Source of the DNA: Pseudohalocynthiibacter aestuariivivens
GTDB taxonomy: Bacteria; Pseudomonadota; Alphaproteobacteria; Rhodobacterales; Rhodobacteraceae
Length of the DNA stretch: 64,000 nucleotides
Assembly: GCF_018457175.1 (NCBI RefSeq)
Contig: NZ_JAGFNU010000014.1
Location: 1-64,000, forward strand
Reading direction: 5' to 3'
Under the pieces are notes generated by a model. It was not told the DNA's origin. It ran no database searches and worked only from the letters and a program-made list of their open reading frames with translations. Below, in pieces: positions 1-61,577 of this stretch; the stretch's first letter is position 1; each line of letters begins with the position of its first letter. The translations under genes were made by a program, and so were the position numbers.

Positions 1-127
1 CTCTGAGGCCGCAAAGAAAACACGAAAGGAAACACCGACATTGACCGCGAAATAAACGCTGATACATAATCAAGGGTGGGTCAAATCTCGGTGAAAATAC
101 CGGGTCAGTTCTCAACGCAAATCAACA
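1..127. mobile_element. Right end of an IS21-family-like insertion sequence (partial)
   Basis: Bases 77-127 hold two imperfect tandem copies of a motif that begins GGGTCA, continues with TCTC and then AAAT; the second copy ends GCAAATCAACA. IS21-family elements carry multiple terminal repeats of this look and end in CA, which places the element border near base 127. One frame is open from the left edge to a TAA at 53-55, which fits the tail of an IstB-type helper gene lying just inside the end, but only 17 codons are visible. The rest of the element would lie left of the window. The family assignment is by recollection of terminal sequences, not by a search. Confidence 0.5.
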
Positions 128-234
128 TTTGGTCCAAGAAAGTGAACGCTTGCAACTATGGCGGTACTAGCGTGGGGCGGTACTCAGGCGCTCATTCGTT
201 GTATTTTTAGGCGCATTAAATCTTTGGAAACAAT

Positions 235-939
235 GTGCTTTTTGACAACCTAAAATTGACTCATCCATCCTTCCATATTGTTTCTGCCCCAAGAAGTGGC
301 AATCATTTGGTGCGAACCATTTTCGAAGCTTACTCTCACAGGCCGACAGAAGGGTGTCTCGGTATCAAATCTGACCCCCCAATCCATTCGAGGAAGCTGA
401 ATTTAGAAAAAAAACTAATAACAATTTCGGATACTCGTCCAATTGCGTTCAAGGCACATAGAGTCCGAGAAGTTTTTCTACGCGAAAAGAATTGGGATGA
501 AGCAAGCGGCCTGATTTTCGTTTTGAGGGATCCAGTTAGCGCGATATCTTCGCAACTGGTTCGATCTGGCATGATGAATAATAATCCACTGAAGAACATG
601 ACTCGCAAACGTCGTCTTTTTCTTCAAGATGCTGTTGAAAACTACATATCATTGATCAATTTGTACAAGCTTTGGAAAGAAAACAATAAGATTCTTGTAA
701 GATTTGAAGACCTGATCTCGGTTGAAAAACAAGACTCTCAAATAGATTTGCTTTTAGATTTTGCTGGTCTCGATAGAAGAGCAATCCAGTCACCTATAGA
801 AGAGTTGTTCTCTCTAGGGCAGGAAAGTCAGCTCGACAAACTAAAGGATAGGCCGAGAAAGCAGTCCAAAGCTAAAGAGCAAGTTTCGAGTATTATTACA
901 TACGCTGATGTAGAGAAGCTTTTGCTTGGGCATATGTAG
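235..939 (+). CDS. Sulfotransferase-family protein
   Basis: A 234-residue protein of the P-loop sulfotransferase type, which moves a sulfuryl group from PAPS to an acceptor. The 5'-phosphosulfate loop is visible as SAPRSGNHLVR (residues 17-27), the 3'-phosphate site as IFVLRDPVSAISS (94-106), and a typical late motif as VRFEDL (about 155-160). No signal peptide or membrane segment is seen, so a cytoplasmic enzyme is expected. The start taken is GTG at 235; the substrate cannot be read from sequence. Base composition is clearly more A+T rich than the chromosomal genes further right, and it sits beside an insertion-sequence end, so horizontal acquisition is likely. Such genes often modify surface glycans, but no glycan cluster is visible here. 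Confidence 0.7.
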   Translation: MLFDNLKLTHPSFHIVSAPRSGNHLVRTIFEAYSHRPTEGCLGIKSDPPIHSRKLNLEKKLITISDTRPIAFKAHRVREVFLREKNWDEASGLIFVLRDPVSAISSQLVRSGMMNNNPLKNMTRKRRLFLQDAVENYISLINLYKLWKENNKILVRFEDLISVEKQDSQIDLLLDFAGLDRRAIQSPIEELFSLGQESQLDKLKDRPRKQSKAKEQVSSIITYADVEKLLLGHM

Positions 940-1157
940 CCTGAATTTAAGCATTTGAACTTACAGCCTAGAACTTGTGAACAGAGATTTCATGATTTTC
1001 TGAAATACTCTCGCCATGCTCACTGGCGGGGGAAAGCGGTGTACCACCACCGCTCACCACGCAGCCTGCGTTAACAATAGCTGCGCCGACGTACTTACCA
1101 GAAACCGTCGCCCGACTCTCGCGAGAGCGGGCAACTCTTATTCTGGAATCAAAGACA
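940..1157. other. Intergenic leader with two palindromes
   Basis: No convincing gene is present in these 218 bases. Two inverted repeats stand out: AGCGGTG/CACCGCT arms at 1035-1054, and the perfect 12-bp palindrome CTCTCGCGAGAG at 1116-1127, flanked by further complementary bases (CCCG/CGGG). They lie upstream of the adenine methyltransferase and could be regulator sites or structured leader RNA. Nothing shows which. Confidence 0.35.
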
Positions 1158-1973
1158 ATGACAATGGAACAAGTGCGGGCTGCCGCGCCTGTCGCCCCGT
1201 GGCTGGGTGGCAAGAAACAGCTTTCGAAAACCCTGATCGAGCGGATCGATGCGATACCACATGCAACCTATGTCGAACCATTCGTCGGCATGGGAGGGGT
1301 GTTCCTGCGCCGAAGCTGGAAACCAAAAGCCGAAGTGATCAATGATTTGAACGGAGAAATCATCAATCTGTTTCGGATTCTGCAGCGCCATTACCCGCAG
1401 TTTATGGATTGCCTGAAGTTTCAGGTGAGTTCGCGCCGGGAATTTGAGCGGCTACGGCAAACCGATCCGGCCACGCTCACCGATCTGGAGCGTGCGGCGC
1501 GATTCATCTATCTGCAGCGACAGAATTTTGGCGGAAAGCGTGATGGTGTTTTTGGCGTCGCGACAGGCCGGGCATCCCGGTTTGACCTTTCCCGGCTTGG
1601 CCCGTTGCTTGAAGCCGCGCATGAGCGCCTGTCCGGTGTAGTTTTTGAGAACCTGGACTGGTCAGAGCTGATCACCCGCTATGACGCGAAAGATACCCTC
1701 TTTTATCTCGACCCGCCCTATTTCGGGGGCGAGAACGACTATGGGAAAGGGATGTTTGACCGGGGAGCCTATACGCAGATGGCAGAACAGCTTTCCTCGA
1801 TCGAGGGTGCATTCCTGATGTCGATCAATGACAAGCCCGAAATCCGGGAAGTCTTCGCTCCGTTCATCATTGATGAGGTGCGCCTGAGTTACACGATCAG
1901 TAAAGGGAAGTCGGGCGGAAAGGTTCAGGAGCTAATTATTTCGAACAGGTCGACGGTGGCGGGATTGCTGTGA
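1158..1973 (+). CDS. D12-class (Dam-type) DNA adenine N6-methyltransferase
   Basis: A 271-residue DNA methyltransferase that transfers a methyl group from S-adenosylmethionine to adenine. The D12 (alpha-class) motif order is clear: motif X as APWLGGKKQL (13-22), the SAM-binding motif I as EPFVGMGGVFL (40-50), then INDLNGEI, and the catalytic DPPY at 185-188. Length is normal for the family. No restriction endonuclease gene is adjacent, so it is a solitary enzyme, the usual form in prophages and islands where it protects DNA or affects regulation. A second in-frame ATG at 1164 is an equally possible start. Base composition is closer to the chromosome than that of the sulfotransferase. The recognition site is unknown; GATC is only a guess from family. 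Confidence 0.85.
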   Translation: MTMEQVRAAAPVAPWLGGKKQLSKTLIERIDAIPHATYVEPFVGMGGVFLRRSWKPKAEVINDLNGEIINLFRILQRHYPQFMDCLKFQVSSRREFERLRQTDPATLTDLERAARFIYLQRQNFGGKRDGVFGVATGRASRFDLSRLGPLLEAAHERLSGVVFENLDWSELITRYDAKDTLFYLDPPYFGGENDYGKGMFDRGAYTQMAEQLSSIEGAFLMSINDKPEIREVFAPFIIDEVRLSYTISKGKSGGKVQELIISNRSTVAGLL

Positions 1974-1980
1974 ATGTTTA

Positions 1981-2017
1981 AAGCCGGAAATGCGTTTTGT
2001 CGCACTTCCGGCTTTTT
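1981..2017 (+). terminator. Rho-independent terminator after the methyltransferase gene
   Basis: Arms AAGCCGGAA-TGCG and CGCA-TTCCGGCTT pair around a TTTTGT loop with one mismatch and are followed by a T run. The stem starts seven bases past the methyltransferase stop and separates it from the convergent higA. Confidence 0.8.
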
Positions 2018-2033
2018 CTTCTAGCTGATTCAG

Positions 2034-2318
2034 TCACGCACACATTTCGAGCGGCGTGATGTCAGAAACATCCACTTCTTTTCGTGCGCCAGCCAGATCA
2101 TAGCTGCGCTGCAAGTTCATCCAGAACTCAGCAGAATTACCAAAGAAGCGAGACAACCGCAGCGCTGTGTCTGCTGTCATCGATGTTTGCTCCTTCACCA
2201 ACCGCTCTATCCGCGTGCGTGGCACATTGAGCGATTTGGCCAGTTTGATTGGCGATATTTCCAGCTCATCCAAAAACTCTTCTTTAAGAATTTCTCCCGG
2301 ATGAACGGGGTTTTTCAT
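2034..2318 (-). CDS. higA: HigA-family antitoxin (helix-turn-helix)
   Basis: A 94-residue antitoxin of the HigA/VapI group, which binds and neutralises the HigB ribonuclease and represses the shared promoter. The protein begins MKNPVHPGEILKEEFL, the family's hallmark opening, followed by a Cro/CI-type helix-turn-helix (about residues 20-65, including the segment SPIKLAKSLNVP) and the typical GNSAEFWMNLQ block. An upstream ATG at 2348 would add ten residues, but the conserved opening supports the start at 2318. It lies downstream of the toxin gene, the reversed order typical of higBA, with about 107 bp between the toxin stop and this start. Confidence 0.85.
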   Translation of the reverse strand: MKNPVHPGEILKEEFLDELEISPIKLAKSLNVPRTRIERLVKEQTSMTADTALRLSRFFGNSAEFWMNLQRSYDLAGARKEVDVSDITPLEMCA

Positions 2319-2425
2319 TTCTATAGCCCCGCTAATGCTTTGACCCATTGCCTTTTTCTCTCCTTTTCCAAATCTGGAGCTTTCCGCTCTCTTGTTGGTG
2401 TTTGTATTGTCCTCTTATCGGGACC

Positions 2426-2707
2426 TTAGTGATAGTCAGTTATCTCGACCTCCGTTGCGTCCGTTCCATCCCATTTAAAACAAATTCTCCATTGCTTATT
2501 TATTCGGATGGAATGTTGTCCTTTGCGGTCACCGCTCAAGGCTTCCAAGTTGTTCGATGGTGGTATGCGCAGATCATTCAGGTCTCGCGCACTGTCCAAT
2601 ATCGCAACTTTTCGTTCGGCGCGGCGGACAAGATCAGAGGGAAAGCCCTTACCGGGTTTACCAGCAATGACTGCCGCGATTAACTTGCCCTTAGTCCCCT
2701 GTATCAT
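2426..2707 (-). CDS. higB: HigB/RelE-family toxin
   Basis: A 93-residue toxin of the RelE/ParE superfamily; HigB proteins cleave mRNA on the ribosome. Family features include the late segments LSGDRKGQHSIRINKQWRI (basic strand with catalytic-type Arg residues) and ICFKWDGTDATEVEITDYH, the standard C-terminus. The frame stays open upstream to 2848, but the added residues look unlike the family and would be encoded across the operator, so the ATG at 2707 is chosen. The start codon lies inside the first operator palindrome, so repressor binding should block transcription start or initiation directly. It is followed by higA. Confidence 0.85.
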   Translation of the reverse strand: MIQGTKGKLIAAVIAGKPGKGFPSDLVRRAERKVAILDSARDLNDLRIPPSNNLEALSGDRKGQHSIRINKQWRICFKWDGTDATEVEITDYH

Positions 2708-2753
2708 GTTGTGATACGTATCGTGACACGATACATGTGTCAAGTCGTGATAC
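2701..2753 (-). promoter_or_regulatory. Tandem palindromic operator of higBA
   Basis: Three 17-bp units stand almost end to end: GTATCATGTTGTGATAC (2701-2717), the near-perfect palindrome GTATCGTGACACGATAC (2718-2734) and a weaker GTGTCAAGTCGTGATAC (2737-2753). All share GTATCA/TGATAC-type half-sites. The array covers the higB start codon and the promoter side of the operon, so it is the expected autoregulatory site for HigA or the HigBA complex. Confidence 0.65.
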
Positions 2754-2757
2754 ATAT

Positions 2758-2994
2758 TTAAGTGTCTGCGTTTAACTTCACAAGCTGCGGATAGATCACC
2801 TTGCAGGTATTGCTGATCAGCCGGTTCGTCGGATCGTGTTTTGGGCAATCCTTCGATAGTATGTGCAATGCGTCTGGGCCCGCGGTGTTGGCTCCGACAA
2901 TTTCACAGAACCGTTTCTTCGAATACTTCCCGTATCGTCCGCAGGTTTTGCAGCGGATTTCTACCGTTTCATAAGGGAAGTCGAAGACGCGCAT
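2758..2994 (-). CDS. Small hypothetical protein with a CxxC motif
   Basis: A predicted 78-residue protein. It carries RCKTCGRYGKYSKKRFCEIVG (two parts: CKTC at 15-18 and a Cys at 30) and a further Cys in KDCPKH near residue 50, so a small zinc-binding fold is plausible. It is basic and has no signal or membrane segment. It lies just upstream of the higBA operator on the same strand, in accessory DNA. Comparable short Cys-containing proteins occur in alphaproteobacterial prophages and islands, but I do not recognise a named family. The ATG at 2994 is the only reasonable start. Confidence 0.5.
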   Translation of the reverse strand: MRVFDFPYETVEIRCKTCGRYGKYSKKRFCEIVGANTAGPDALHILSKDCPKHDPTNRLISNTCKVIYPQLVKLNADT

Positions 2995-3045
2995 GATTCA
3001 CCATGTTTACGATGTCGTGTTTTTGTAACAAAGTGGGTCAGTGCG

Positions 3046-3132
3046 CTTCACCCGCACCATTTTTTTTCAAATGATTGACCGACAATATTGTACCGATAGG
3101 GTAATTAGGCATTTGTTGAGGAAATTGAAATG
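3046..3132 (+). repeat. Copy A of an 87-bp direct repeat: tRNA-Leu 3' end plus pentapeptide gene leader
   Basis: Starts with CTTCACCCGCACCA, the last 14 bases of the tRNA-Leu gene at 61174-61258, and continues through the leader to the ATG of the pentapeptide gene. Aligned by eye with 61245-61331 there are about nine mismatches and no gaps. Similarity carries on into the first about 30 codons of both genes. No tRNA body precedes this copy. Confidence 0.75.
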
Positions 3133-4344
3133 ACCGAACTGACGCCTGCCAACGAAAATCCATGGTACATTCTGGCGACAATATGTGGTGAGTTTGAAAG
3201 ACATGTCCCGAATTCAGAACTACTGGCCCAAAATAGACGTATGTGGAATGGTTGGGCTTGTTCGGGAATGTCTGATGAACACCGCAAATCTATAGCGAAC
3301 AAAATTGGGCTACCGATAGAAGAACTAGCCGAGTTAGAGATTGAAGAGAGGATGCAGTTAGAAGCAGCTTTTCGCGACCGCGTACCCGAAGGAATCGCAA
3401 TTCCATTGCCGAAGGACCAAGTAGCCCTCTCAAAAACCTTGTTTTCTAACACGGTAATTTTTAACAAATACGTATTCGCCGGAAGTGCTAGTATCGCAGA
3501 TTGCATCTTTGAAGGTGGTGCAGATTTTTCATCATGCTATTTTTGCGAATTTTGCAACCTTGGCGGCACTGAATTCAAATCAAACGCATGGTTTGAGGCC
3601 GCCACATTTTGTGGCCCTCCAAGTTTTAACTCAGCGATTTTTCTAGGTGCAAACTTTACATCAGCTGAATTTGGAAAAATGACCGATTTTGGTAAAGCGA
3701 TTTTCAGTCATGGTGCAGACTTTTCCAATTCAGTTTTTAAGAAGACTGCTCGATTTAATCGTACAAAATTCGCCGGGGCAGCCCCCAAATTTTTTGAAAC
3801 TGTATTGCATCAAGATACTCGACTTAGCACCGAAACAGAATATTGGCCGCCCGTAAGTGAAGGCGACCCGCAAGACAGTATCGAGGCCTATACCCGGTTG
3901 CGACAAGTCATGAATGAGCTGCAAAAACCTGAGGAGGAGCATTTCTTTTATCGGCAGGAAATGCGTTGGAGAGTAAAAGGTGCCTCGGGCTGGAAATGGC
4001 TTTTGCTTGTGCTATTTCAAGAATTATCTGAGTTTGGATACAGTATTGCACGACCCATTTACTGCCTGACAACCTTACTGATAGTACCATTTCTGATTTA
4101 CCTAGTAAAATTTAACTGGGACGAAATTGTTTACGAAACTTACCACACGAAGTTTGAATCCATAGCTTTATCGTTTGCAAGCATATTCAAGATATTTGGT
4201 TTTCAAGGTTTGTATTTTGACAGTAAATATATGAACGGATTGCATCCTGCTCTACAATTTTTGTCAGGGATCCAAACCATCCTAGGTTTCGTATTTCTGT
4301 TCTTTCTAGCGTTAGGGCTTCGTAATCGATTTAGGTTGCGGTAG
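3130..4344 (+). CDS. Pentapeptide-repeat protein with two C-terminal membrane segments
   Basis: A 404-residue protein. Residues 1-40 form a conserved opening (LTPANENPWYILATICGE); about 100-220 hold degenerate pentapeptide repeats with Phe every fifth position (ADFSS, ANFTS, ADFSN and similar), which fold as a right-handed square helix. After a charged linker with EEEHFFYRQEMR (268-279) come a hydrophobic segment at about 308-328 and another at about 374-398, ending in basic residues (RNRFRLR), a layout seen in repeat proteins fused to a two-helix channel-like membrane domain. Function is unknown. It is A+T rich and in the island. The start of this gene is duplicated, with a truncated partner, behind tRNA-Leu at 61329. 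Confidence 0.85.
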   Translation: MTELTPANENPWYILATICGEFERHVPNSELLAQNRRMWNGWACSGMSDEHRKSIANKIGLPIEELAELEIEERMQLEAAFRDRVPEGIAIPLPKDQVALSKTLFSNTVIFNKYVFAGSASIADCIFEGGADFSSCYFCEFCNLGGTEFKSNAWFEAATFCGPPSFNSAIFLGANFTSAEFGKMTDFGKAIFSHGADFSNSVFKKTARFNRTKFAGAAPKFFETVLHQDTRLSTETEYWPPVSEGDPQDSIEAYTRLRQVMNELQKPEEEHFFYRQEMRWRVKGASGWKWLLLVLFQELSEFGYSIARPIYCLTTLLIVPFLIYLVKFNWDEIVYETYHTKFESIALSFASIFKIFGFQGLYFDSKYMNGLHPALQFLSGIQTILGFVFLFFLALGLRNRFRLR

Positions 4345-4441
4345 GAGGTATATTTCGGAGATCAACTTTCACAATATGTTGCGAGTTTTTTCCCGGAAAT
4401 GCGCGTAGATAACAATCTGAATAAGAAAACAATCAAATAGT

Positions 4442-5713
4442 CTATTCTTCAGTGTCTTTCTTTGCTGGCCAGAATGAAGACGCGTCCCAAATTTCAAACC
4501 TTAGGTTTTCAAGTTTTGCATCACCTTTGAAGTTGCCAGTTACGGTCATATCGGGGTGATACTTGTATTTGTCTACATGTTCATCAAAAGTGATGTCCTT
4601 TATCCCATTCTTCCAGAATAGAGACGGCCAATCAAATCCGTCCGGAGGATAGTTTTCGGAGACTCCCGTCAATTCTCCTGACAAATACAACTCCTGACCT
4701 AACGGACCACGCGGTTTGTTGTATGGTTCACCCATAATTTTTTCCAAAGTGTCTTGATCAAGATCGAGCACACTAAAAATAGCTTCGCGGAGGTATTTTG
4801 CGGTCAAAACTAAATTGTCTCTAGCCCTTGGTATCAGAGTGCCCATATTCTCCAAGCCATGTTCGTATCTGTCGCTGACATCTTTCGCAGCATTGTACGT
4901 ATCGCGGTCTGATTGAAAGACGAGTTCTCCTTTTGCGGCTGCGTCTAGGTATTGTTGGATCGTCATATTCCCGCCGCCTTCGACCCAGCCCCAGTCGGCT
5001 GCGAGCTCTTCACTAGTTTTTCCATCTTTCTTTAACTTATGACGCAAACAAGCCTTTTGAATTGCTTCGACGCCCATGAACAGGTGAGACAATGCAATCA
5101 ATTCAAATCCGTGTCGCCAGTTCCGCAATGCTTGAGCGTATTGAGCAGTCGCTCTGATTATGCGGTCCTGCTCGTCCGAAGCATGAACAGCAGTAATGGC
5201 CTTTGAAGCAGCCTCGACGTTGATGAACCTGGATGTAAGTGCGGGTTTGTCGGCACGCATAAATCTCTGAAAATATTCCCCTCTATCCGACTCTGGTTCG
5301 ACTTCAAACGATATTTCCGGTTCGAGTATACTAGCGTGAGCGTTTGCCACGCACGCTATTATCGCGATCAAAACCTGCCCATGCATTAGAAATGACTGCG
5401 CGGCCTCCATGCAATTTGGCGCGTCGCCTTGGGCAAACACCATCATGTCTCCCGGATGGGGGACAGTGAAATTCTTTACGTATCGTGTAATGAACATGTA
5501 ACGAACAAGTCGCCCATCCAATTCCGAATGGACTTCTAGCTTGTCGTCACTCCGAAAAATTGAACTCGCTTTAGATCGTGCGGTCACGCGGAAAGTTTTC
5601 ATGTGTATCGACCTGCCCGATTTGTTGAGTTTCCATGAGATTATGGGCTTACGGTCAAATTTTGCAAAGTCTTCTTCCTGCACAAGCCGCCCATAGAGGG
5701 ATAGACGATGCAA
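4442..5713 (-). CDS. Hypothetical protein, 423 residues, possibly HEPN-like
   Basis: I do not recognise this protein with confidence. It has no signal peptide and only one short hydrophobic stretch (LIAIIACVANAHASI, about 115-130). The middle, about 195-320, is helical and contains FELIALSHLFMGVEAIQKACLRH and later AAKDVSDRYEHGLE; this pattern resembles Apea-like HEPN proteins, a fold common among RNA-targeting defence and toxin proteins, but the resemblance is by eye and weak. The C-terminal 100 residues are rich in aromatic and acidic residues. It stands alone on the minus strand between the pentapeptide gene and the integrase. The start at 5713 is uncertain. Confidence 0.65.
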   Translation of the reverse strand: MHRLSLYGRLVQEEDFAKFDRKPIISWKLNKSGRSIHMKTFRVTARSKASSIFRSDDKLEVHSELDGRLVRYMFITRYVKNFTVPHPGDMMVFAQGDAPNCMEAAQSFLMHGQVLIAIIACVANAHASILEPEISFEVEPESDRGEYFQRFMRADKPALTSRFINVEAASKAITAVHASDEQDRIIRATAQYAQALRNWRHGFELIALSHLFMGVEAIQKACLRHKLKKDGKTSEELAADWGWVEGGGNMTIQQYLDAAAKGELVFQSDRDTYNAAKDVSDRYEHGLENMGTLIPRARDNLVLTAKYLREAIFSVLDLDQDTLEKIMGEPYNKPRGPLGQELYLSGELTGVSENYPPDGFDWPSLFWKNGIKDITFDEHVDKYKYHPDMTVTGNFKGDAKLENLRFEIWDASSFWPAKKDTEE

Positions 5714-5890
5714 TGGTCATTTTGGATCGTTGGGGGCGTTCGCCACACTACTGCCAAAGGGCTGCTAAGCGAGCGATACTGGAGCTTAGAATCCTCGTAA
5801 AGTTAATGTTGATAGTAGAGTTTTAAGGGCGAGCCCTTGAAACTACCAATCTCTCGGCGCTGCAGATTTCCTGTAAGGTATTAATTTCAT

Positions 5891-5935
5891 TGGTGCACCC
5901 GACTGGATTCGAACCAGTGGCCTCTGCCTTCGGAG
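5891..5935 (-). other. 3' half of a tRNA-Arg(CCG) gene, probable integration-site remnant
   Basis: On the minus strand the sequence reads from the anticodon loop (CTCCGAAGGCAG), through a complete T-arm (ACTGG-TTCGAAT-CCAGT), to the acceptor strand GGGTGCA and CCA. The D-arm and 5' half are absent, so it is not a functional tRNA. Such 3' fragments beginning at the anticodon loop are left at the far end of elements integrated in tRNA genes. It lies 50 bp beyond the 3' end of the integrase gene. The intact tRNA-Arg is not in the window. Confidence 0.75.
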
Positions 5936-5985
5936 CGCACTGCTTGTTCAGGAACACCAACATCCAGAACAGGATTTCAGATAAA

Positions 5986-7080
5986 TTACACATGGAAGTT
6001 TTGCAATTTGCTTAGTCGTTCGATCCACTCCCAGCCGTCGTATTTGTCCCCAACCTGATCAATGTGGGTATATCGCTGGAGCGATGACCAAGACCTATGG
6101 CCTGACACAGCCGCGACCTGAGGAATAGAAAGTCCCATTTCAAACAGGCGCGAAACTCCTTCATGTCTTAGATCGTGAAACCGAAGGTCATTTATTTCCA
6201 AAAACTTACAAGCTCTTGTGAAAGCAGCGCTGATAGCGTCTGTGCGGTAGGGGAAAATGCGCGCATCGACAGCAGGCATAGCCTCTGCAATTGCGCACGC
6301 AGGATCCGGCAGGTCGCACCGGACATTGTTGCCAATCTTATCACCCGGATGCTTCATGTTAGTCACTAGAACACGTTCATTTTCTGTGTCCAAACCCGCC
6401 CAAGTAACGCGCGTTATTTCCTCCTGTCGCCTAGTGGAGAAGAGGGCGAAGGCAACCACGCGATGCATGGGGATGGACTTCGGGCGATGCAAGTGCTTTT
6501 GCTCGAACAGCGCCATTAATGCATTAAGCTCATCCAGCGTCGGTCGACGATCCCGTTCTTTCGATTTTCCTGTGATGCCCAACCGATTGCAAACCGCAAA
6601 TGCGTCTTTCATTGCCTGCCCGTCAAGCGGTAAACCCCAAGCAGGGCGGGCAATGGTGAATACCGCGCCGAGATGTGACATGTAGTTGCTGACGGTTGCA
6701 GGAGACCGGCTGGTTGAAAGGCTTCGCGCAAAATCAACGATGTCGGGGCTTTTTATGTCCTCGCATCTCATATCTGCAATATCGAACTCCAAAATCGTAT
6801 TCAGGACTTGCGCTTTTGTGCGGCCAATTTCCTTGATGCTTTCCCGAGAGTATTTGCGGATCGCATCTCCAAGAGATTTACCCTTCGACTTTAACGAGCC
6901 GAGATCTTCGCCTGCAGCGTCAATTTCTTTTTTCCGTTTCTTGATCCACGCATTTGCGGCGGATTTGCGATCAAATGTTTTTGCTTCCCGGTGAACCCGT
7001 TTGCCATTTCTTTTGATGTCGATTTGTGCCAGATAGGCCGACGACCCGTCTTTACGCTTTCGTTCAATGATGTGAGGCAT
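5986..7080 (-). CDS. Tyrosine recombinase / phage-type integrase
   Basis: A 364-residue site-specific recombinase. The N-terminal part is an arm/core-binding region with SAM-like helices (about 65-165); the catalytic domain follows, with Arg in FSTRRQEEI (217-218), Lys in TNMKHPG (243), HDLR (302-305), the second His in SGHRSW (328) and the nucleophile Tyr337 in QRYTHID. All five active-site positions are present, so it looks functional. The frame is open to 7185, but MPHIIERKRKDGS at 7080 is the usual opening, and the intervening DNA carries repeated CCAACA sites. It is head to head with dusA, whose 5' end is a known target of one integrase group; a tRNA-Arg fragment lies at its other end. 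Confidence 0.9.
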   Translation of the reverse strand: MPHIIERKRKDGSSAYLAQIDIKRNGKRVHREAKTFDRKSAANAWIKKRKKEIDAAGEDLGSLKSKGKSLGDAIRKYSRESIKEIGRTKAQVLNTILEFDIADMRCEDIKSPDIVDFARSLSTSRSPATVSNYMSHLGAVFTIARPAWGLPLDGQAMKDAFAVCNRLGITGKSKERDRRPTLDELNALMALFEQKHLHRPKSIPMHRVVAFALFSTRRQEEITRVTWAGLDTENERVLVTNMKHPGDKIGNNVRCDLPDPACAIAEAMPAVDARIFPYRTDAISAAFTRACKFLEINDLRFHDLRHEGVSRLFEMGLSIPQVAAVSGHRSWSSLQRYTHIDQVGDKYDGWEWIERLSKLQNFHV

Positions 7081-7081
7081 C

Positions 7082-7121
7082 GGGCCAACATTCCAAATTT
7101 CAGACCAACATTTGTTGGCCC
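7082..7121. promoter_or_regulatory. CCAACA repeats between integrase and dusA (arm sites or operator)
   Basis: GGGCCAACA at 7082-7090 and TGTTGGCCC at 7113-7121 are perfect 9-base inverted arms. Inside, CCAACA recurs at 7105-7110 and forms a CCAACA-TT-TGTTGG palindrome (7105-7118). The two direct CCAACA copies are 20 bp apart, about two helical turns. The array abuts the integrase start, so it could be integrase arm-binding sites or an operator. Confidence 0.5.
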
Positions 7122-7185
7122 TGAATGACAGAACGGGCAAAAATAGGCAATAATCGATACTAAATGGGCAACTAAAAATATCCAA

Positions 7186-8214
7186 ATGAGTGGCGATAAC
7201 GTAAATAAAACAAGCAATTACAAGGCATCCCGTCTATCGATCGCACCCATGATGGATTGGACAGACCGACATTGTCGCTACCTGCACCGGTTAATGAGCC
7301 GGCGTGCCTTGCTTTATACCGAAATGGTGACAGCGCCTGCTTTGGTGCGTGGCGGAGCGCGGCATTTACTGCGTTACAGCCCTGCGGAGCATCCTGTTGC
7401 TGTTCAATTGGGTGGTTCTGACCCGGCAGAGCTTGCCGACGCGACCGCAATTTGTTGCGAGGAAGGCTATGATGAGGTCAACCTCAACGTCGGGTGCCCA
7501 TCTGACCGGGTGCAATCGGGATGTTTTGGCGCGGTTCTGATGGAGCGCCCGGCGCTTGTTGCTGACTGCGTTGCTGCAATGATCAAAGCCTCATCCGTCG
7601 AAGTAACGGTAAAATGCCGGATCGGGGTAGATAATCAGAACCCCGACAAGGTCCTGCCTGACTTTCTGGCACGCGTCAGGGATGCGGGTGCGCGTCGCGT
7701 GCAAATTCACGCACGCAAAGCCTGGCTCCAGGGGCTGAGCCCCAAGGAAAACCGGAACATACCGCCGCTTAACTATGCGCTTGTTTTTAAGATGAAAGAC
7801 GCCTTTCAAGATCTTGATATATCAATAAATGGTGGTATTTCGAGCCTCGCTCAGGCAAAAGAAATGCTGGCGGCTGGATTGGATGGTGTGATGATTGGCC
7901 GGGCGACTTATCATACACCTTCTGACATTCTGCTTGACGTCGACCGCGAAATATTTGGTGAAATCACCCACAAATCTGCCCACCAGGTTGTGCGCGAAAT
8001 GCGCCCCTATATCGACGCGCATATAGCCGAAGGTGGCAAGCTTATGTCGGTCAGTCGCCATATGCTTGGGCTGTTTGCCGGCCGGCCGGGCGCGCGTGGG
8101 TGGCGACGGATGCTTTCTGAAAACGGGCACCGTGCGGGCGCTGACTGGGGTTTGATCGAACAGGCACTGGACTGTGTTGAAGAATTCCCTGAGAGTGCCG
8201 CAACCACAGCCTAG
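7186..8214 (+). CDS. dusA: tRNA-dihydrouridine synthase A
   Basis: A 342-residue FMN enzyme that reduces uridine to dihydrouridine in the D-loop of tRNA (U20/U20a in E. coli DusA). The TIM-barrel opening SIAPMMDWTDRHCR (18-31), the catalytic cysteine in NVGCPSDRVQ (Cys104) and the GGI/IGRATYH phosphate-binding segments are all DusA-like, as is the length. The ATG at 7186 is taken as start; residues 1-15 (MSGDNVNKTS...) differ in character from the conserved body and may derive from the integrated element, because integration at dusA replaces the gene's 5' end. It is followed by a TauE gene nine bases on. Confidence 0.95.
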   Translation: MSGDNVNKTSNYKASRLSIAPMMDWTDRHCRYLHRLMSRRALLYTEMVTAPALVRGGARHLLRYSPAEHPVAVQLGGSDPAELADATAICCEEGYDEVNLNVGCPSDRVQSGCFGAVLMERPALVADCVAAMIKASSVEVTVKCRIGVDNQNPDKVLPDFLARVRDAGARRVQIHARKAWLQGLSPKENRNIPPLNYALVFKMKDAFQDLDISINGGISSLAQAKEMLAAGLDGVMIGRATYHTPSDILLDVDREIFGEITHKSAHQVVREMRPYIDAHIAEGGKLMSVSRHMLGLFAGRPGARGWRRMLSENGHRAGADWGLIEQALDCVEEFPESAATTA

Positions 8215-33728: not shown

Positions 33729-35390
33729 ATGCTTCAAATCCCTCTTTGGAAGCGGGTCACGATCTGGGCGTTTTGTGCGCTTGGGCTGCTGATGGCGATG
33801 CCAAACGCATTTTACACAAAGGTCGAAACCCACAATGATGCCCTTCAGGCCATTGAGCTGTCGGGGGAAACGCCGGAATTACTGGCAGATCAGGCAAGTT
33901 GGCCTGATTGGTTGCCTTCGTCGCTTATCAATCTGGGGCTCGATCTGCGGGGGGGTGCACATTTGCTGGCCGAAGTGCATGTTTCCGATGTTTACGAAGC
34001 GCGTCTTCAAGGAATGTGGTCTGAAGTGCGCGATGCGTTGCGCCCGGAACGTACAACCGTTGGCACAATCCGCCTTCAGGACAGCGCCGCCGACGAACTT
34101 CGTGTGCGTATCTCGCAGCCAGAGGGTATGGCGCGCGCGCTGGAGATCGTTCGCGGTCTTGCGCGCCCTGTCACAACATTGGCGGGTGTCGGTGCCAGTG
34201 ATATTGAGGTGCGCGCTGAAAACGATGTGATCGTCGTGAACCTTTCAGATGCCGAAAAGGTTGCGACAGATGAACGTACAGTTCAGCAATCGCTTGAGAT
34301 TATCCGCCGTCGTGTGGATGAGGTTGGCACCCGCGAGCCAACAATTCAGCGTCAGGGGACAGAACGAATTCTGATTCAGGTTCCCGGCGTTGGCTCGGCA
34401 GCTGAACTGAAGGATATTATCGGCACACCGGCAAAGCTGGAATTCAAACCGGTTGTTGGGCGTACGCAGGATAGCAACGCCAACCCCGGTGTTGGAAATG
34501 AGCTACTGCCTTCGATTGACGAAGAAGGCGTGTTTTACATTCTTGAACGCGCTGCTGTCGTGTCAGGTGAAGAACTCGTCGATGCACAGCCCAGTTTTGA
34601 CCAGAATGGGCGCCCTGCTGTCAATTTCCGCTTTAATCCGACGGGTGCACGAAAATTCGGAACTTATACTGCTGAAAATATTGGTTCTCCCTTTGCTATC
34701 GTGCTTGATGAAGAGGTTATTTCAGCACCTGTTATTCAGTCCCATATTCCGGGCGGATCAGGCATAATCACCGGGCGTTTTTCGGTTGAAGAGACGACCA
34801 ACCTTGCCGTGCTGCTGCGCGCAGGTGCATTGCCAGCGAAAATGACCTTTCTTGAAGAGCGCACCATTGGCCCGGAACTTGGACAAGACAGCATTGATGC
34901 GGGCAAGCTGGCCTGTATCGTGGCGTTTGCTGCCGTGTTGATCTTTATGGCGCTAAGTTATGGACTTTTCGGTCTTTTCGCCAACATCGCACTGATCATC
35001 AACGTTGGTTTGATTTTTGGATTGCTAAGCATGATTGGTGCGACGCTGACCTTGCCAGGTATCGCAGGTATTGTTCTGACAATCGGCATGGCAGTAGATG
35101 CCAATGTGCTGATTTTTGAGCGGATCCGTGAGGAGCTTAAAACCGCAAAAGGACCAGCCCGTGCGATCGAGCTTGGGTATGAAAAGGCGCTCAGCGCCAT
35201 TCTGGATGCCAACATCACCACGTTTATCACGGCCGTCATCCTGTTTGTCATGGGCTCAGGCCCTGTACGGGGTTTTTCCATTACGCTGGGGCTGGGAATT
35301 ATCACATCTGTCTTTACGGCGATTTTTGTAACCCGTGTGATGATCATCATGTGGTTTGAACGCCGCAAACCCAACACAATCGAGGTCTGA
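33729..35390 (+). CDS. secD: Protein translocase subunit SecD
   Basis: A 553-residue RND-type membrane subunit that uses the proton gradient to pull proteins out of the translocon. It has one N-terminal helix, a periplasmic P1 domain opened by LGLDLRGGAHLLAEV (about 61-75), and five further helices from about 395 on, with the conserved AVDANVLIFERIREEL. It starts 21 bases after yajC and ends three bases before secF. Confidence 0.97.
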   Translation: MLQIPLWKRVTIWAFCALGLLMAMPNAFYTKVETHNDALQAIELSGETPELLADQASWPDWLPSSLINLGLDLRGGAHLLAEVHVSDVYEARLQGMWSEVRDALRPERTTVGTIRLQDSAADELRVRISQPEGMARALEIVRGLARPVTTLAGVGASDIEVRAENDVIVVNLSDAEKVATDERTVQQSLEIIRRRVDEVGTREPTIQRQGTERILIQVPGVGSAAELKDIIGTPAKLEFKPVVGRTQDSNANPGVGNELLPSIDEEGVFYILERAAVVSGEELVDAQPSFDQNGRPAVNFRFNPTGARKFGTYTAENIGSPFAIVLDEEVISAPVIQSHIPGGSGIITGRFSVEETTNLAVLLRAGALPAKMTFLEERTIGPELGQDSIDAGKLACIVAFAAVLIFMALSYGLFGLFANIALIINVGLIFGLLSMIGATLTLPGIAGIVLTIGMAVDANVLIFERIREELKTAKGPARAIELGYEKALSAILDANITTFITAVILFVMGSGPVRGFSITLGLGIITSVFTAIFVTRVMIIMWFERRKPNTIEV

Positions 35391-40896: not shown

Positions 40897-43584
40897 TCAG
40901 CTTTTGGCCAAATTCCGCAGCACATAGTGCAAAACACCACCATTTTCTATGTATTCGATCTCTACTTCCGTATCGATACGGCATTTCAGCTGTATCTCTT
41001 TCGACGATCCGTCGGCATATTTGATTGTTGCAGGAACATTTGAAAGCGGTTTGAGATCGCCGTCTAAACCTGTGATTGTCACAGTTTCGTCACCTTTCAG
41101 GCCGAGAGAGGTACGATTGTCTCCACCAGTGAATTCAAACGGGATAACCCCCATTCCGACAAGATTCGAACGGTGAATGCGTTCAAAACTTTCTGCGACC
41201 ACCGCTTTCACACCCAACAGGGCTGTGCCCTTGGCTGCCCAGTCACGGGAAGACCCTGCACCATATTGTTCGCCAGCGAAAATCACCAGCGGAGTGCCTG
41301 CCTCCTGATAGGCCATTGCAGCATCAAAAATCGCTGCTTGTTTCCCATCCGGGCCCTTGGTGTAGCCGCCCTCAACACCATCCAGCATTTCGTTTTTGAT
41401 ACGGATATTGGCAAATGTACCGCGCATCATAACTTCGTGGTTTCCGCGTCGCGATCCGTAAGAGTTGAACTCGCGCACGGGCACTTGCCGGTCAACAAGA
41501 TACTTCCCGGCCGGTGTCGTGTCCTTAAACGATCCAGCGGGGCTGATGTGGTCGGTTGTGACCATGTCGCCAAGGATTGCCAGGACTTTTGCATCTGTCA
41601 CGTTTGAGATAGTGCCAGCTTCTTTTGACATGCCCTGAAAGTAAGGCGGGTTTTGCACATAGGTTGATGTGGTGGGCCAGTCATAGGTCAGGCTGTCAGT
41701 CGTTTCGACAGATTGCCATTTTTCATCGCCTTTAAAGACGTCGGCATATTTCGACTGGAACGCTTCACGTGTGACGGTTTTTTCAACCAGTTCCGCAATT
41801 TCTTGTGTCGTTGGCCAGATGTCTTTCAGGTAGACGTCGTTGCCGTCTTTGTCCTGTGCGATCGGGTCTGACGCAAGATTGATGTCCATCGTGCCAGCAA
41901 GCGCATAAGCAACCACAAGCGGCGGAGAGGCAAGATAGTTTGCACGGACATCCGGGCTGATGCGGCCTTCAAAGTTCCGGTTGCCAGAAAGCACAGAGGT
42001 TGCCACCAGATCACCTTCGGCAATCGCTTCGGACAGTTCTTTCTGGATCGGGCCAGAGTTGCCGATACAAGTTGTGCAGCCATAGCCAACAAGGTTGAAA
42101 CCAATGGCGTCCAGATCTTTTTGCAGGTCCGCCGCTTCAAGATAGGCGCTCACGACCTGTGAACCGGGTGCCAGAGAGGTTTTAACCCAAGGTTTACGGC
42201 CCAGGCCAAGTGCCGCTGCTTTGCGTGCCACAAGGCCTGCTCCGATCATCACGTAAGGGTTGGAGGTGTTGGTACAAGAGGTGATCGAGGCAATCACAAC
42301 CTTGCCGGATTCCATCGTGTAATCTTCACCGGCAACAGCAACCTCCTTGCCCATGGGGCGCTTAAAGGTCTCTTCCATTTCTTTTTGGAACGCAGTCTTT
42401 GCCTGATCAAGCGCGACATAGTCTTGTGGGCGTTTAGGACCCGAAATCGCAGGTACGATTGTCCCCATATTAAGATGCAGCGTATCCGTGTAAATCGGAG
42501 CGTAGTCATCGCCGCGCCAGAAACCGTTTTCTTTTGCATAGGCTTCGACAAGCGCTATCCGGCCCTCGTCGCGGCCAGACGTGCGCAGGTAGCGCAGCGT
42601 TTCGTTATCGACCGGGAAGAAGCCACAAGTCGCGCCATACTCGGGCGCCATGTTGGCAATGGTCGCGCGATCTGCCAGCGGCAGGCGATCAAGCCCTTCA
42701 CCGTAAAACTCGACGAATTTTCCGACAACGCCTTTGGCGCGCAGCATTTCGACAACTTTGAGAACCAGATCAGTGCCTGTTGTGCCTTCGCTCATGTCAC
42801 CGGTCAGTTCAAATCCGACTACTTCGGGGATCAGCATGGAAATGGGCTGGCCAAGCATTGCAGCCTCAGCCTCAATGCCACCAACACCCCAGCCTAGAAC
42901 GGCGAGGCCGTTTACCATTGTGGTGTGGCTGTCGGTACCAACGAGCGTGTCAGGGTAGGCAACGTTTTCGCCGTTTTGGTCCACATCGGTCCAGACCGTC
43001 TGCGACAGGTATTCGAGGTTCACCTGATGGCAGATACCGGTTCCGGGGGGAACAACACGAAAGTTGTTAAACGCGGACTGGCCCCATTTCAGGAATGTGT
43101 AGCGTTCGATGTTACGTTCATATTCGCGGTCAACGTTCATCTGAAACGCGCGGGGGTTGCCGAACTCATCAATCATGACCGAGTGGTCGATCACAAGATC
43201 AACCGGGTTCAGCGGGTTGATCTTTTCAGGATCACCACCAAGGCCCATGATTCCGTCGCGCATGGCTGCAAGGTCAACAACGGCAGGAACGCCAGTGAAA
43301 TCCTGCATCAGAACACGCGCGGGGCGATAGGCGATTTCGCGCGGGTTTTTGCCACCCTGGACTGCCCACTCGCTAAACGCCTTGATGTCATCAACGGAAA
43401 CGGTTTTGCCGTCTTCAAAGCGAAGCATATTTTCAAGCACCACTTTAAGCGCGGCGGGTAATTTGGAAAAATCGCCAAGTCCGGCCGCCTCGGCGGCAGG
43501 GATGGAATAATAGGAAATGCTCTCAGAGCCGACTTTCAATGTTTTGCGGGTTTTAGAACTATCGCGTCCAACGGTGATGGGCAT
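40897..43584 (-). CDS. acnA: Aconitate hydratase A
   Basis: An 895-residue [4Fe-4S] enzyme of the TCA cycle, interconverting citrate and isocitrate. Cluster cysteines are in ASITSCTNTSNP and YGCTTCIGNSGP, both in the second half of the main domain; the swivel domain with QYGAGSSRDWAAKG is C-terminal, the AcnA/IRP1 arrangement. The start MPITVGRDSSKTRK at 43584 has the right opening; the frame runs on to 43650 without family similarity. Two inverted repeats lie upstream (43615-43690), between it and the divergent DUF1223 gene. Confidence 0.97.
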   Translation of the reverse strand: MPITVGRDSSKTRKTLKVGSESISYYSIPAAEAAGLGDFSKLPAALKVVLENMLRFEDGKTVSVDDIKAFSEWAVQGGKNPREIAYRPARVLMQDFTGVPAVVDLAAMRDGIMGLGGDPEKINPLNPVDLVIDHSVMIDEFGNPRAFQMNVDREYERNIERYTFLKWGQSAFNNFRVVPPGTGICHQVNLEYLSQTVWTDVDQNGENVAYPDTLVGTDSHTTMVNGLAVLGWGVGGIEAEAAMLGQPISMLIPEVVGFELTGDMSEGTTGTDLVLKVVEMLRAKGVVGKFVEFYGEGLDRLPLADRATIANMAPEYGATCGFFPVDNETLRYLRTSGRDEGRIALVEAYAKENGFWRGDDYAPIYTDTLHLNMGTIVPAISGPKRPQDYVALDQAKTAFQKEMEETFKRPMGKEVAVAGEDYTMESGKVVIASITSCTNTSNPYVMIGAGLVARKAAALGLGRKPWVKTSLAPGSQVVSAYLEAADLQKDLDAIGFNLVGYGCTTCIGNSGPIQKELSEAIAEGDLVATSVLSGNRNFEGRISPDVRANYLASPPLVVAYALAGTMDINLASDPIAQDKDGNDVYLKDIWPTTQEIAELVEKTVTREAFQSKYADVFKGDEKWQSVETTDSLTYDWPTTSTYVQNPPYFQGMSKEAGTISNVTDAKVLAILGDMVTTDHISPAGSFKDTTPAGKYLVDRQVPVREFNSYGSRRGNHEVMMRGTFANIRIKNEMLDGVEGGYTKGPDGKQAAIFDAAMAYQEAGTPLVIFAGEQYGAGSSRDWAAKGTALLGVKAVVAESFERIHRSNLVGMGVIPFEFTGGDNRTSLGLKGDETVTITGLDGDLKPLSNVPATIKYADGSSKEIQLKCRIDTEVEIEYIENGGVLHYVLRNLAKS

Positions 43585-43614
43585 CGTGGCCTCCCTCAAA
43601 TGATTTCGGGGTAT

Positions 43615-43639
43615 TGTTAAGGCTGGTATTGCCTTAACA
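43615..43639. promoter_or_regulatory. Perfect inverted repeat upstream of acnA
   Basis: TGTTAAGGC and GCCTTAACA, nine perfect bases each, flank a 7-base spacer. It lies 31 bases before the acnA start and could be a hairpin in its leader RNA or a regulator site. Confidence 0.5.
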
Positions 43640-43670
43640 TTGGCGTTCATTCAAGAGGAGATGTGCACTT

Positions 43671-51581: not shown

Positions 51582-52910
51582 TTAAAAATACCCCATCAAG
51601 CGCGAGTCAAAGGGATAAGTCGTCAGGTTTTCAAAACCGTCCTCTGTAATCAAGACCTGATCTTCGAGCTTGATTGAAAAATCACCGTCTTCCGGGCTAA
51701 CCAATGCTTCAGAGCAAAGCACCATCCCGGCCTCCAGTTCATATTCAAAGGCTCCTTCAACGAATTGGTCTGGATAAGCAATCAGGGGCCATTCGTCGCA
51801 CAACCCGACTCCATGCATTAAACAGCCGTATTTTTGTTTTTGAAACTGTTCGTCAAGCTTGTGACAGTTGTGCGTAAGATCACGCATCTGGACACCTGGT
51901 TTCAGCATTTCCATGTTTGTCATGATGTGTTCATGGGCGTGTTGCATGGCGTAAACCATGTCCGGGCGGGGGTCCGCGTCACCGACCCACCAACTGCGCG
52001 AAATATCAACACAGATTCCGTAGGAGCCGATCAGGTCAGTGTCAAATGAAAGAATTTCGTTGTTCTGAAGGATACGTGGGCCACATTCCTGAAACCACGG
52101 GTTGGTGCGTGGACCCGTGGACAGAAGCCGGGTTTCGATCCATTCGCCGCCCCGCTTGATGTTTTCAGCATGAAGGACAGCCCAGATTTCATCTTCGCTC
52201 ATTCCGGGTTCACAAGCGCGTTCCATCTCTGCCACAGCATTTTCACAGGCGATCGAGGCGCAGCGCATTGCCAGAATCTCGTCCGGGCCTTTGACTGAGC
52301 GGGCCTTTTCGGTCAGTTCCTCGCCTTCCATGACTTCAAACCCCTGTGCAACAAGGGCGCGGTTTCCGTGAATTGTCGGTTTGTCGACACCAAGCCGCAT
52401 GTTTCCGCAGGAATGTTTTTCGATCAGAATACGCACTTCGTTTGAAAAGGCATCAGCCGCCACATCCACCTTGTCGCCCCGGTCAAAGTAAAACAGGTCC
52501 GCGCCAGAGCGCTGCTCGCGCACCAATGGGTTGAATTTGCTGAGGAAAGGGGAATTCTTGTAGTCCCAGATCACCATATACCCATCCGCGCAAACCAGCA
52601 CCGCACGAAAGGAATTATGTGTATTCCAAAGCTGCATATTAGTGCTGTCGGTTGCGTAGCGGATGTTCATCGGATCAAACATCAAAACGCCGCCGTAGTC
52701 TCGGGCATTGATGTGGCTTACCAATCGTTGGAGCCTGTAAGCACGCATCTTTTCAAGGTTGGGCAGAACAAGTTCCGCTGCTTCCCATTCGCGAAAGGCA
52801 AGTTGCGTCGGCCCAATTTCGACCCGGTCATTGTCATTTGGAGAACCGTCAGGCAGTTTGTCGCCGCGTGTTGGGTCGATCTTTCTTCTTTCGCGATAAT
52901 GCGTGTTCAT
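51582..52910 (-). CDS. dddP: DMSP lyase DddP (M24 metallopeptidase fold)
   Basis: A 442-residue enzyme that cleaves dimethylsulfoniopropionate to dimethyl sulfide and acrylate. It has the M24 'pita-bread' fold but uses it for a lyase. The opening MNTHYRERRKIDPTRG is typical of characterised DddP. The six metal ligands known from R. lacuscaerulensis DddP (Asp295, Asp297, Asp307, His371, Glu406, Glu421) map with a constant offset of five to Asp290, Asp292, Asp302, His366, Glu401 and Glu416 here. The frame runs to 53102, but the ATG at 52910 is the family start. It is divergent from the DUF3445 gene, with about 110 bp between starts. Confidence 0.95.
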   Translation of the reverse strand: MNTHYRERRKIDPTRGDKLPDGSPNDNDRVEIGPTQLAFREWEAAELVLPNLEKMRAYRLQRLVSHINARDYGGVLMFDPMNIRYATDSTNMQLWNTHNSFRAVLVCADGYMVIWDYKNSPFLSKFNPLVREQRSGADLFYFDRGDKVDVAADAFSNEVRILIEKHSCGNMRLGVDKPTIHGNRALVAQGFEVMEGEELTEKARSVKGPDEILAMRCASIACENAVAEMERACEPGMSEDEIWAVLHAENIKRGGEWIETRLLSTGPRTNPWFQECGPRILQNNEILSFDTDLIGSYGICVDISRSWWVGDADPRPDMVYAMQHAHEHIMTNMEMLKPGVQMRDLTHNCHKLDEQFQKQKYGCLMHGVGLCDEWPLIAYPDQFVEGAFEYELEAGMVLCSEALVSPEDGDFSIKLEDQVLITEDGFENLTTYPFDSRLMGYF

Positions 52911-53019
52911 AGCTTTGGCTCCGTCGGTGCTGGCAAAACGATGAAATGCTTTCCCCGCATTGTCCTGCCTGAAACCGACCAAAACAGGGGTCGGTTTTGG
53001 TATAATAGGGCAGTTTTTG

Positions 53020-60938: not shown

Positions 60939-61173
60939 CGTGTTTCCCGATTGAAACAAAATAGAACATTCCCGACAAGCTTATGAACTTCAAGCTGCCA
61001 AGGGTCCAATCTGAAATTTATTACCATAATCCCGATTAAGAAAGACCTTCGGATGAATGGGAGAATTTAGCAGAGTGAGGTGTTGTAAAAAGAGTTGCGG
61101 AGGGGTCTTCCCTCTGGTCTGTGGCTTTGTTAGAAGGCGGGCAGAATCTTGGGCAGACTTTGCTGTTCCATGT

Positions 61174-61258
61174 GCGGGTGTGGCGGAATTGGTAGACGCA
61201 CCAGATTTAGGTTCTGGCGCCGTGAGGCGTGGGGGTTCAAGTCCCTTCACCCGCACCA
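61174..61258 (+). tRNA. tRNA-Leu, anticodon UAG
   Basis: A complete class II tRNA. GCGGGTG pairs with CACCCGC in the acceptor stem; the D-arm has TTGGTAGACGC; the anticodon arm is CCAGA-TTTAGGT-TCTGG giving UAG; a variable arm (CGCCGTGAGGCGT) and the T-arm GGGGGTTCAAGTCCC follow, then encoded CCA. The last 14 bases recur at 3046-3059, where they start a long direct repeat. Confidence 0.95.
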
Positions 61259-61331
61259 TTTTCTTTCAAATGATTGACCGATGATATCTTACCGATAGGA
61301 TAGTTTGGCATTTGTTGAGGAAATCGAAATG
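61245..61331 (+). repeat. Copy B of the 87-bp direct repeat at tRNA-Leu
   Basis: Runs from inside the tRNA T-arm to the start codon of the truncated pentapeptide gene. It matches 3046-3132 with about nine mismatches and no gap. This copy is attached to the intact tRNA, so it marks the original site or the integration point. Confidence 0.75.
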
Positions 61332-61577
61332 ACCGGACTGACGCCTGCAAACGAAAATCCTTGGCATGTTCTGGCGACAATAAAAGGTGCGTTCGAAAGA
61401 GGCACCCCGAATTCGGATGTTGTGGCAATACGAGAAAATTCTGCGACAAATTCCGCACTTTCCCATGCCGCCAAATCGCTTGCGCCGGCGATAATAAGTT
61501 TGTTCAACAATCTGCACTTCACGAATGGCACCTATACGCGCCATTCCTTGACCGAACAGCACTTCAACCTGCCGTAA
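61329..61577 (+). pseudogene. Truncated homologue of the pentapeptide-repeat gene
   Basis: An 82-codon frame. Residues 1-38 match the opening of the protein at 3130 (MTGLTPANENPWHVLATIKG, then FERGTPNS), after which similarity stops and the sequence reads as unrelated coding or noise to the stop. No pentapeptide repeats or membrane segment follow before the formate dehydrogenase gene. It is best seen as a gene broken after its first about 40 codons, or as a short fusion with unknown DNA. Confidence 0.7.

Follow-up and report, generated by a model that had tools for sequence, protein, structure and literature searches.

The window analysed here is a stretch of 64,000 nucleotides at the start of contig C6 of Pseudohalocynthiibacter aestuariivivens, in which the 3′ end of tRNA-Leu(UAG) occurs twice, each time followed by a leader and the beginning of a pentapeptide-repeat gene (Table 1). 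One copy lies at the intact tRNA gene and the other in a genomic island that runs from the left end of the contig, which begins inside the island, to dusA at 7186. At the island edge, a tyrosine integrase frame (7185–5986, minus strand) abuts the dusA 5′ end at 7186; the open frame begins at 7185, and the start at 7080 was our choice. The integrase shares 56% identity with its counterpart in Burkholderia phage AH2, a phage that the available text of PMC4482086 names among the matches to dusA-associated integrases, and 62% with an integrase from viral contig L193, where the gene likewise borders the start of dusA (Pfam Dus); these relationships place it in the dusA-associated family. A second copy of the dusA 5′ part was not found in the genome at E ≤ 1, except for matches of 21–32 bases. 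The island further holds a higA/higB-type toxin-antitoxin pair (2034–2848; TIGR02607 and PF05015), a D12-class adenine methylase and a sulfotransferase-like gene (1158–1973 and 235–939, respectively; Pfam), and an ORF at 2758–2994 for which no relatives were confirmed in viral contigs. Elsewhere in the window, a gene for the DMSP lyase DddP (51582–53102; NF043017) fits a marine roseobacter-type host.

Table 1 Features of the island copy and of the tRNA-Leu(UAG) site in the window
Feature	Coordinates	Strand	Basis
Displaced last 14 bases of tRNA-Leu(UAG) (CTTCACCCGCACCA), left edge of the putatively moved unit	3046..3059	+	14/14 identical to 61245–61258
Leader common to the tRNA-Leu flank, 70 nt, A+T-rich	3060..3129	+	61/70 identical to 61259–61328
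Intact pentapeptide-repeat gene, 404 codons	3130..4344	+	ORF; Pfam Pentapeptide_3, 2.1e-15
Orphan gene, 423 codons, same orientation as and downstream of the tRNA-Arg tail	4442..5713	-	Found in 1/394 family genomes
tRNA-Arg(CCG) 3′ part, anticodon loop to CCA	5891..5939	-	49 bases at 98%, 45/45 exact
Tyrosine integrase, dusA-associated family, island edge	5986..7080	-	Pfam Phage_integrase
dusA, right-hand neighbour of the island	7186..8214	+	ORF; Pfam Dus, 6.8e-75
tRNA-Leu(UAG), intact, putative home site	61174..61258	+	ARAGORN (anticodon tag = UAG)
Leader at the putative home site	61259..61328	+	Gapless comparison with the island copy
Truncated 5′ remnant of the pentapeptide gene	61329..61427	+	70% identity over residues 1–33, then no similarity

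A repeat shared by the island and the tRNA-Leu(UAG) flank

Gapless comparison of 3046–3132 with 61245–61331 gave 78/87 identical positions, and the nine mismatches agree with the count made by eye when the sequence-only reading described an 87-bp direct repeat in the same orientation and without a gap. The similarity extends to 3218/61417 (147/173 identical overall) and, as that reading had also proposed, runs into the start of both pentapeptide genes, with 72/89 positions identical in the coding part and 75/84 in the tail and leader. It stops abruptly at both ends. Its left limit cuts the tRNA 14 bases before the 3′ end, and further left 10/26 positions match, a level reached by about 11% of shuffles; on the right, after about 30 codons, similarity past 3218/61417 falls to background (25/82). 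A BLAST search of the whole 3.9 Mb assembly returned these two places and no third copy, at 85% over 173 bases with an E value of 1.2e-50, which excludes chance. The GC content of 3046–3129 was 0.369.

Divergence between the copies was 10% over 87 bases and 15% over 173. Both this divergence and the core genes between the copies rule out an excisable 58-kb segment, as the earlier reading had argued from glnA, secD and acnA; these were matched by NCBIfam at 56305–57711, 33729–35390 and 40897–43650, respectively, and serS and der likewise lie in the segment. An old tandem event, which that reading had offered as one origin of the repeat, found no support, since there is no third copy and the two contexts differ in kind.

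Local alignments for a longer, hidden tRNA-Leu match to the left of 3046 or at the right end of the unit did not rise above shuffles. No better tRNA-Leu fragment was found in the island stretch 1–7185, nor was a tRNA-Leu remnant that would mark a right end beside the island gene. A 10-base match between the end of the pentapeptide gene and the anticodon region was discarded as no better than chance.

The copy at 3130 is complete and that at 61329 is cut off, as had been read from the open frames: the former has 404 open codons and the latter about 33 recognisable ones (61% identity over residues 1–38), its frame staying open through unrelated sequence to 61577. The encoded protein carries a conserved N-terminal NPWY motif, seen in the columns of alignment A1, and two hydrophobic C-terminal stretches, read by eye from the sequence. 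PADLOC has no model for it, and a role in defence is a guess that we base on the cargo of the islets at tRNA-Leu described below. The C-terminal part (252–403) weakly matched one PHROG of unknown function (8.2e-6), and no relatives were present among 17 pattern-matched viral-contig stretches compared in a family alignment. Nineteen plasmid records matched the protein, 18 of them partial and actinobacterial and the remaining one, from Niveispirillum cyanobacteriorum, with 98% coverage at 26%. Because the gene had no DNA match in plasmids or phages and the protein none in phages, we rejected carriage by a phage or plasmid.

Upstream of tRNA-Leu(UAG) lies an nnr-type gene, here and in genome G139 by Pfam and on contig L040 of a Paracoccaceae metagenome-assembled genome (MAG) by tblastn. 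Between nnr and the tRNA, on the opposite strand, the window has a Hint-domain gene (59907–60959); the MAG has one at the equivalent place (L040, 2759–3793), also on the opposite strand and 34% identical to the window gene, and no such match was obtained at that place in G139. Downstream, tig, the usual next gene, starts about 11 kb from the tRNA at C6:72349. The intervening DNA (C6:61428–72349, beyond the window from 64000) contains molybdopterin oxidoreductase and NADH-dehydrogenase-like genes, by eye a formate dehydrogenase, together with an MFS transporter, a histidine kinase, a sigma-54 response regulator and a short TetR-type ORF; Pfam detected no integrase domain in its six long ORFs. 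At C6:72135, 214 nt before tig and in the orientation of the tRNA, there is a partial copy of the tail (CACCCGCACCAT) with a TCAAA-type flank. Its local alignment score of 31 was equalled by 0/200 shuffles; when other sites were scanned in a comparable way, a chance-looking match on L124 also scored 31, so that the copy is a hint of a worn right end.

The island also contains the end of a second tRNA, tRNA-Arg(CCG), whose real gene is on contig C23. About 180 nt past this tail begins the 423-codon gene, which occurs in 1/394 genomes of the family, that is, in this genome only; it had no Pfam, PADLOC, PHROG or NCBIfam match at E ≤ 0.01 and no match in plasmids. The pentapeptide copy and the small islets at tRNA-Leu have this layout too, a tRNA tail followed by a leader and a single gene.

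Relatives of the pentapeptide-repeat gene

A protein search placed the gene family in 27/394 family genomes, including this one. The best match of the 394, G139 (45%), has an intact gene as the sole occupant of the stretch from tRNA-Leu(UAG) to tig, nnr lying upstream, and a scan of named genomes gave a single match, the Paracoccaceae MAG, with the same order of tRNA-Leu(UAG), gene and tig. Cargo thus sits directly at the tRNA 3′ end in three cases, as the remnant behind the leader from 61259 and as the relatives in G139 and L040, and in all three, gene and tRNA share an orientation and lie a short distance apart. The intact gene that had been proposed to exist at this tRNA elsewhere is therefore present in other genera. 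Because each of these relatives is the only gene from the tRNA to tig, the link to the tRNA is not incidental. A leader that was widely dispersed or found beside many tRNAs would have told against the link; queried against the 393 other family genomes, the leader returned matches of only 19–34 bases in 6 of them. It is not common to G139 nor, by eye, to L040, and neither has an 11-base copy of the tail between gene and tig.

A tRNA scan took in 23 loci at which other genomes carry the gene, out to about 1.5 kb from each end of the match (less at contig ends); three further loci lay outside it. One locus, that of G139, has a tRNA, which is tRNA-Leu(UAG); in the other 22/23 the relative does not adjoin a tRNA, which we counted against movement from the tRNA site. 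The G040 relative is found about 110 nt ahead of tig, in a stretch of 14.8 kb that contains no tRNA.

Trees were built from 16 proteins (15 in the second), with the MAG gene added and 12/27 matched genomes omitted as partial or distant. The second tree placed the three linked genes inside one group of eight (support 100/98) and not in one clade. A single clade was thus not recovered, although the AU test did not reject it (p = 0.065 with 16 rows, p = 0.119 with 15 rows). The pattern is consistent either with several arrivals at one site or with a long-standing resident that was lost in some lineages.

The tRNA-Leu(UAG)–tig interval in the family

tRNA-Leu(UAG) was found in 363/394 genomes, and 80 sites were surveyed. 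The start of tig lay within 60 nt of the tRNA at 17 sites, at 60–460 nt at 12 and at 460–6,000 nt at a further 12, these last having inserts of varying content and up to 6 kb; 35 sites lacked tig in the first 6 kb, and the sequence of 4 was too short. The base state seems to be nnr, then tRNA-Leu, then tig. G394, a genus-mate of G139, lacks the pentapeptide gene and has a different insert, of 5.3 kb. Given the varied distances to tig and the differing inserts of these two genomes, the interval is a variable spot.

We then searched for duplicated tRNA ends with a 33-base tail pattern allowing up to 3 mismatches, which matched in 362/394 genomes. More than one match occurred in 21/394 genomes, 16 of which had at least two on one strand (counted from the table). 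We opened 14/21, and eight proved to be pairs of tRNA ends (G307, G336, G349, G339, G093, G247, G174 and G091), seven of them on one contig and that of G091 across two; in G247 both tail copies are 3′ parts. As for the remaining six, an integrase adjoins the tRNA in G303, whose second tail copy was not located, the second copy in G085 is tRNA-Leu(UAA), G202 and G255 each have two intact tRNA-Leu(UAG) genes, and the copy opened in G380 is an intact tRNA followed by tig. In G296 (L202, 840–1134) an inverted copy of the 3′ part, a further displaced tRNA end, precedes an intact tRNA-Leu(UAG) by about 170 bases.

The att-type repeats reach from roughly the anticodon loop as far as CCA, and their exact runs measure 63 bases in G307, 36 in G336, 34 in G349 and 61 in G093; a fifth, in G339, is interrupted near CCA. 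Three of the enclosed islets are small. That of G307 (L201) is 1,347 bp with one gene, whose HNH matches fall just below the Pfam cut-off; that of G336 (L194) is 1,425 bp with one DUF5677 gene; and that of G349 (L195), directly followed by tig, is 3,252 bp with genes for a cytosine methylase and Vsr, an HNH gene and one further ORF that had no match. None of the ORFs scanned in these three islets was an integrase. Phage_integrase genes adjoin tRNA-Leu in G303, G093, G091 and G063 and lie beside the first tail copy in G247, and integrase remnants were seen by eye in G339 and on the second contig of G091. Judged by these sequence features, the tRNA-Leu(UAG) 3′ end is an attachment site for predicted tyrosine integrases in the family. 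Two IMG/VR contigs, L214 and L215, end in an integrase 72–73% identical to that of G303, and two further relatives are distant.

Relatives of the pentapeptide gene are present in G303, G307, G339 and G063, elsewhere in the genome, and in G139 at the tRNA without an att pair. We counted it against the main reading that 2/5 of the opened element-type genomes holding a relative have the att structure without the gene at the tRNA; no genome has both the gene and a clear att pair. The motif TTT(C/T)AAA, which directly follows CCA at the site in the window, occurs at 0/17 sites with tig within 60 nt, 0/12 with tig at 60–460 nt and 8/54 others, and at 6/10 hand-picked element sites, some of which overlap the 8/54. 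This association with element sites is suggestive, and we did not use it as evidence.

Discussion

The two copies, the linkage to the same tRNA in other genera and the att-type duplications at tRNA-Leu are the observed basis for our interpretation. We think it probable, at about 0.6, that a one-gene unit entered and left the tRNA-Leu site by way of an integrase acting in trans, with the home copy decaying and an intact copy becoming caught in the dusA island. The unit would consist of one accessory gene with its home at the tRNA-Leu(UAG) 3′ end, between the tRNA and tig, and the repeat would be its left end. An integrase supplied in trans most likely moved it into and out of the tRNA site; mobilisation in trans is suggested by the integrase-less small islets at the same tRNA, and the means of movement would be site-specific recombination. 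The home copy would since have been reduced to the leader and about 33 codons, with about 11 kb of other DNA now parting the tRNA from tig, and the intact copy, with the last 14 tRNA bases, would have been caught up in the island, the 14 bases being a putative worn attachment site. Movement from the tRNA site to the island is the likelier direction. Movement of a tRNA-linked gene between the two places had been suggested from the window by itself, and the intact relatives at that tRNA in G139 and L040 support it.

An alternative to this reading is that ordinary recombination, illegitimate or homologous, copied a piece of the tRNA-Leu flank, from this or a related genome, into the island, with the break falling 14 bases inside the tRNA by chance and no attachment site involved. 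Islands often take up chromosomal pieces. The tail is only 14 bases long, as against 34–63 exact bases in the four att repeats measured, and a match at the right end is absent. The break, however, falls inside the attachment region of a tRNA that serves as an integration site in the family, and the same island holds a second tRNA tail, exact over 45 bases and reaching from anticodon loop to CCA. We counted this second end, from tRNA-Arg(CCG) and of the same architecture, in favour of a moved one-gene unit, and we regard ordinary recombination as possible but rather doubtful.

Less probable still is that the gene is an old resident between nnr, tRNA-Leu and tig, inherited vertically and mostly lost, and that the island copy was acquired horizontally from a species that keeps the gene at the tRNA. 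The same position in two other genera, the relative shortly before tig in G040 and a divergence between copies that fits a different donor (10% over 87 bases, 15% over 173) are all compatible with such a history. It would nevertheless need losses in nearly all genera, as the gene is known at the tRNA only in G139, in the MAG and, as a remnant, here; moreover, the genus-mate G394 has another insert and the leader is not common to the linked cases. We therefore consider old residence unlikely.

That the tail and leader form an expression unit, with the gene read from the tRNA promoter and the tail kept for processing, is very improbable: gene and tRNA are co-oriented and close together in the three linked cases, and tail and leader are better conserved than the coding start (75/84 vs 72/89 identical), but 14 bases are too few for the tail to fold like the end of a tRNA, and the absence of the leader from G139 means that there is no common signal.

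If a one-gene unit did move, the gene at 3130 is one caught between two homes with the tip of a tRNA still attached, and the tRNA-Leu(UAG) site is a place where single accessory genes and a restriction set would be gained and lost with no integrase of their own. As a tentative extension, which we hold to be somewhat doubtful, the tRNA-Leu(UAG) 3′ end may be a dock for minimal integrase-less units, each of one accessory or defence gene with a leader and tRNA ends, that are moved in trans, and larger islands such as the one at dusA may act as collectors, having gathered one unit from tRNA-Leu and one from tRNA-Arg. Were mobilisation in trans borne out, one-gene islets would count as very small integrating units through which defence genes could spread cheaply, and the tRNA-Leu(UAG)–tig interval makes it directly testable in laboratory strains of the family.

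Integration at tRNA 3′ ends, the dusA-associated family and cis-mobilizable elements (CIMEs) are already known. In the available portions of the literature we found no paper on Rhodobacteraceae genomic islands at tRNA-Leu or trigger factor, and one-gene islets were not recognised there. The dusA-associated islands described in the accessible text of PMC4482086 carry semiconserved 21-bp repeats at both ends. The island in the window resembles them in having a related integrase beside the dusA 5′ end and differs in that its left end and 21-bp repeat are not seen, the contig beginning inside the island.

The Islander database, going by the available part of its description, collects genomic islands at tRNA 3′ ends that have tyrosine integrases (PMC4383910). 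The pentapeptide unit shares with them the site at a tRNA 3′ end, and duplicated tRNA ends mark elements at the same tRNA in relatives. Unlike them, it has no integrase, no proven pair of ends and a tail of 14 bases; for lack of an integrase we do not class it as an autonomous island.

CIMEs, as defined in the accessible sections of PMC5704250, keep their attachment sites, have lost the genes for integration and transfer, and are decayed integrative and conjugative (ICEs) or mobilizable elements (IMEs). Because its right end is uncertain, being at best the partial copy 214 nt before tig, we do not class the pentapeptide unit as a proven CIME on that definition. The islets of G307, G336 and G349 hold one to three genes and, in contrast to CIMEs as there described, their scanned ORFs include nothing that points to a conjugative element; what they share with CIMEs is attL- and attR-like ends around DNA with no integration gene among those ORFs.
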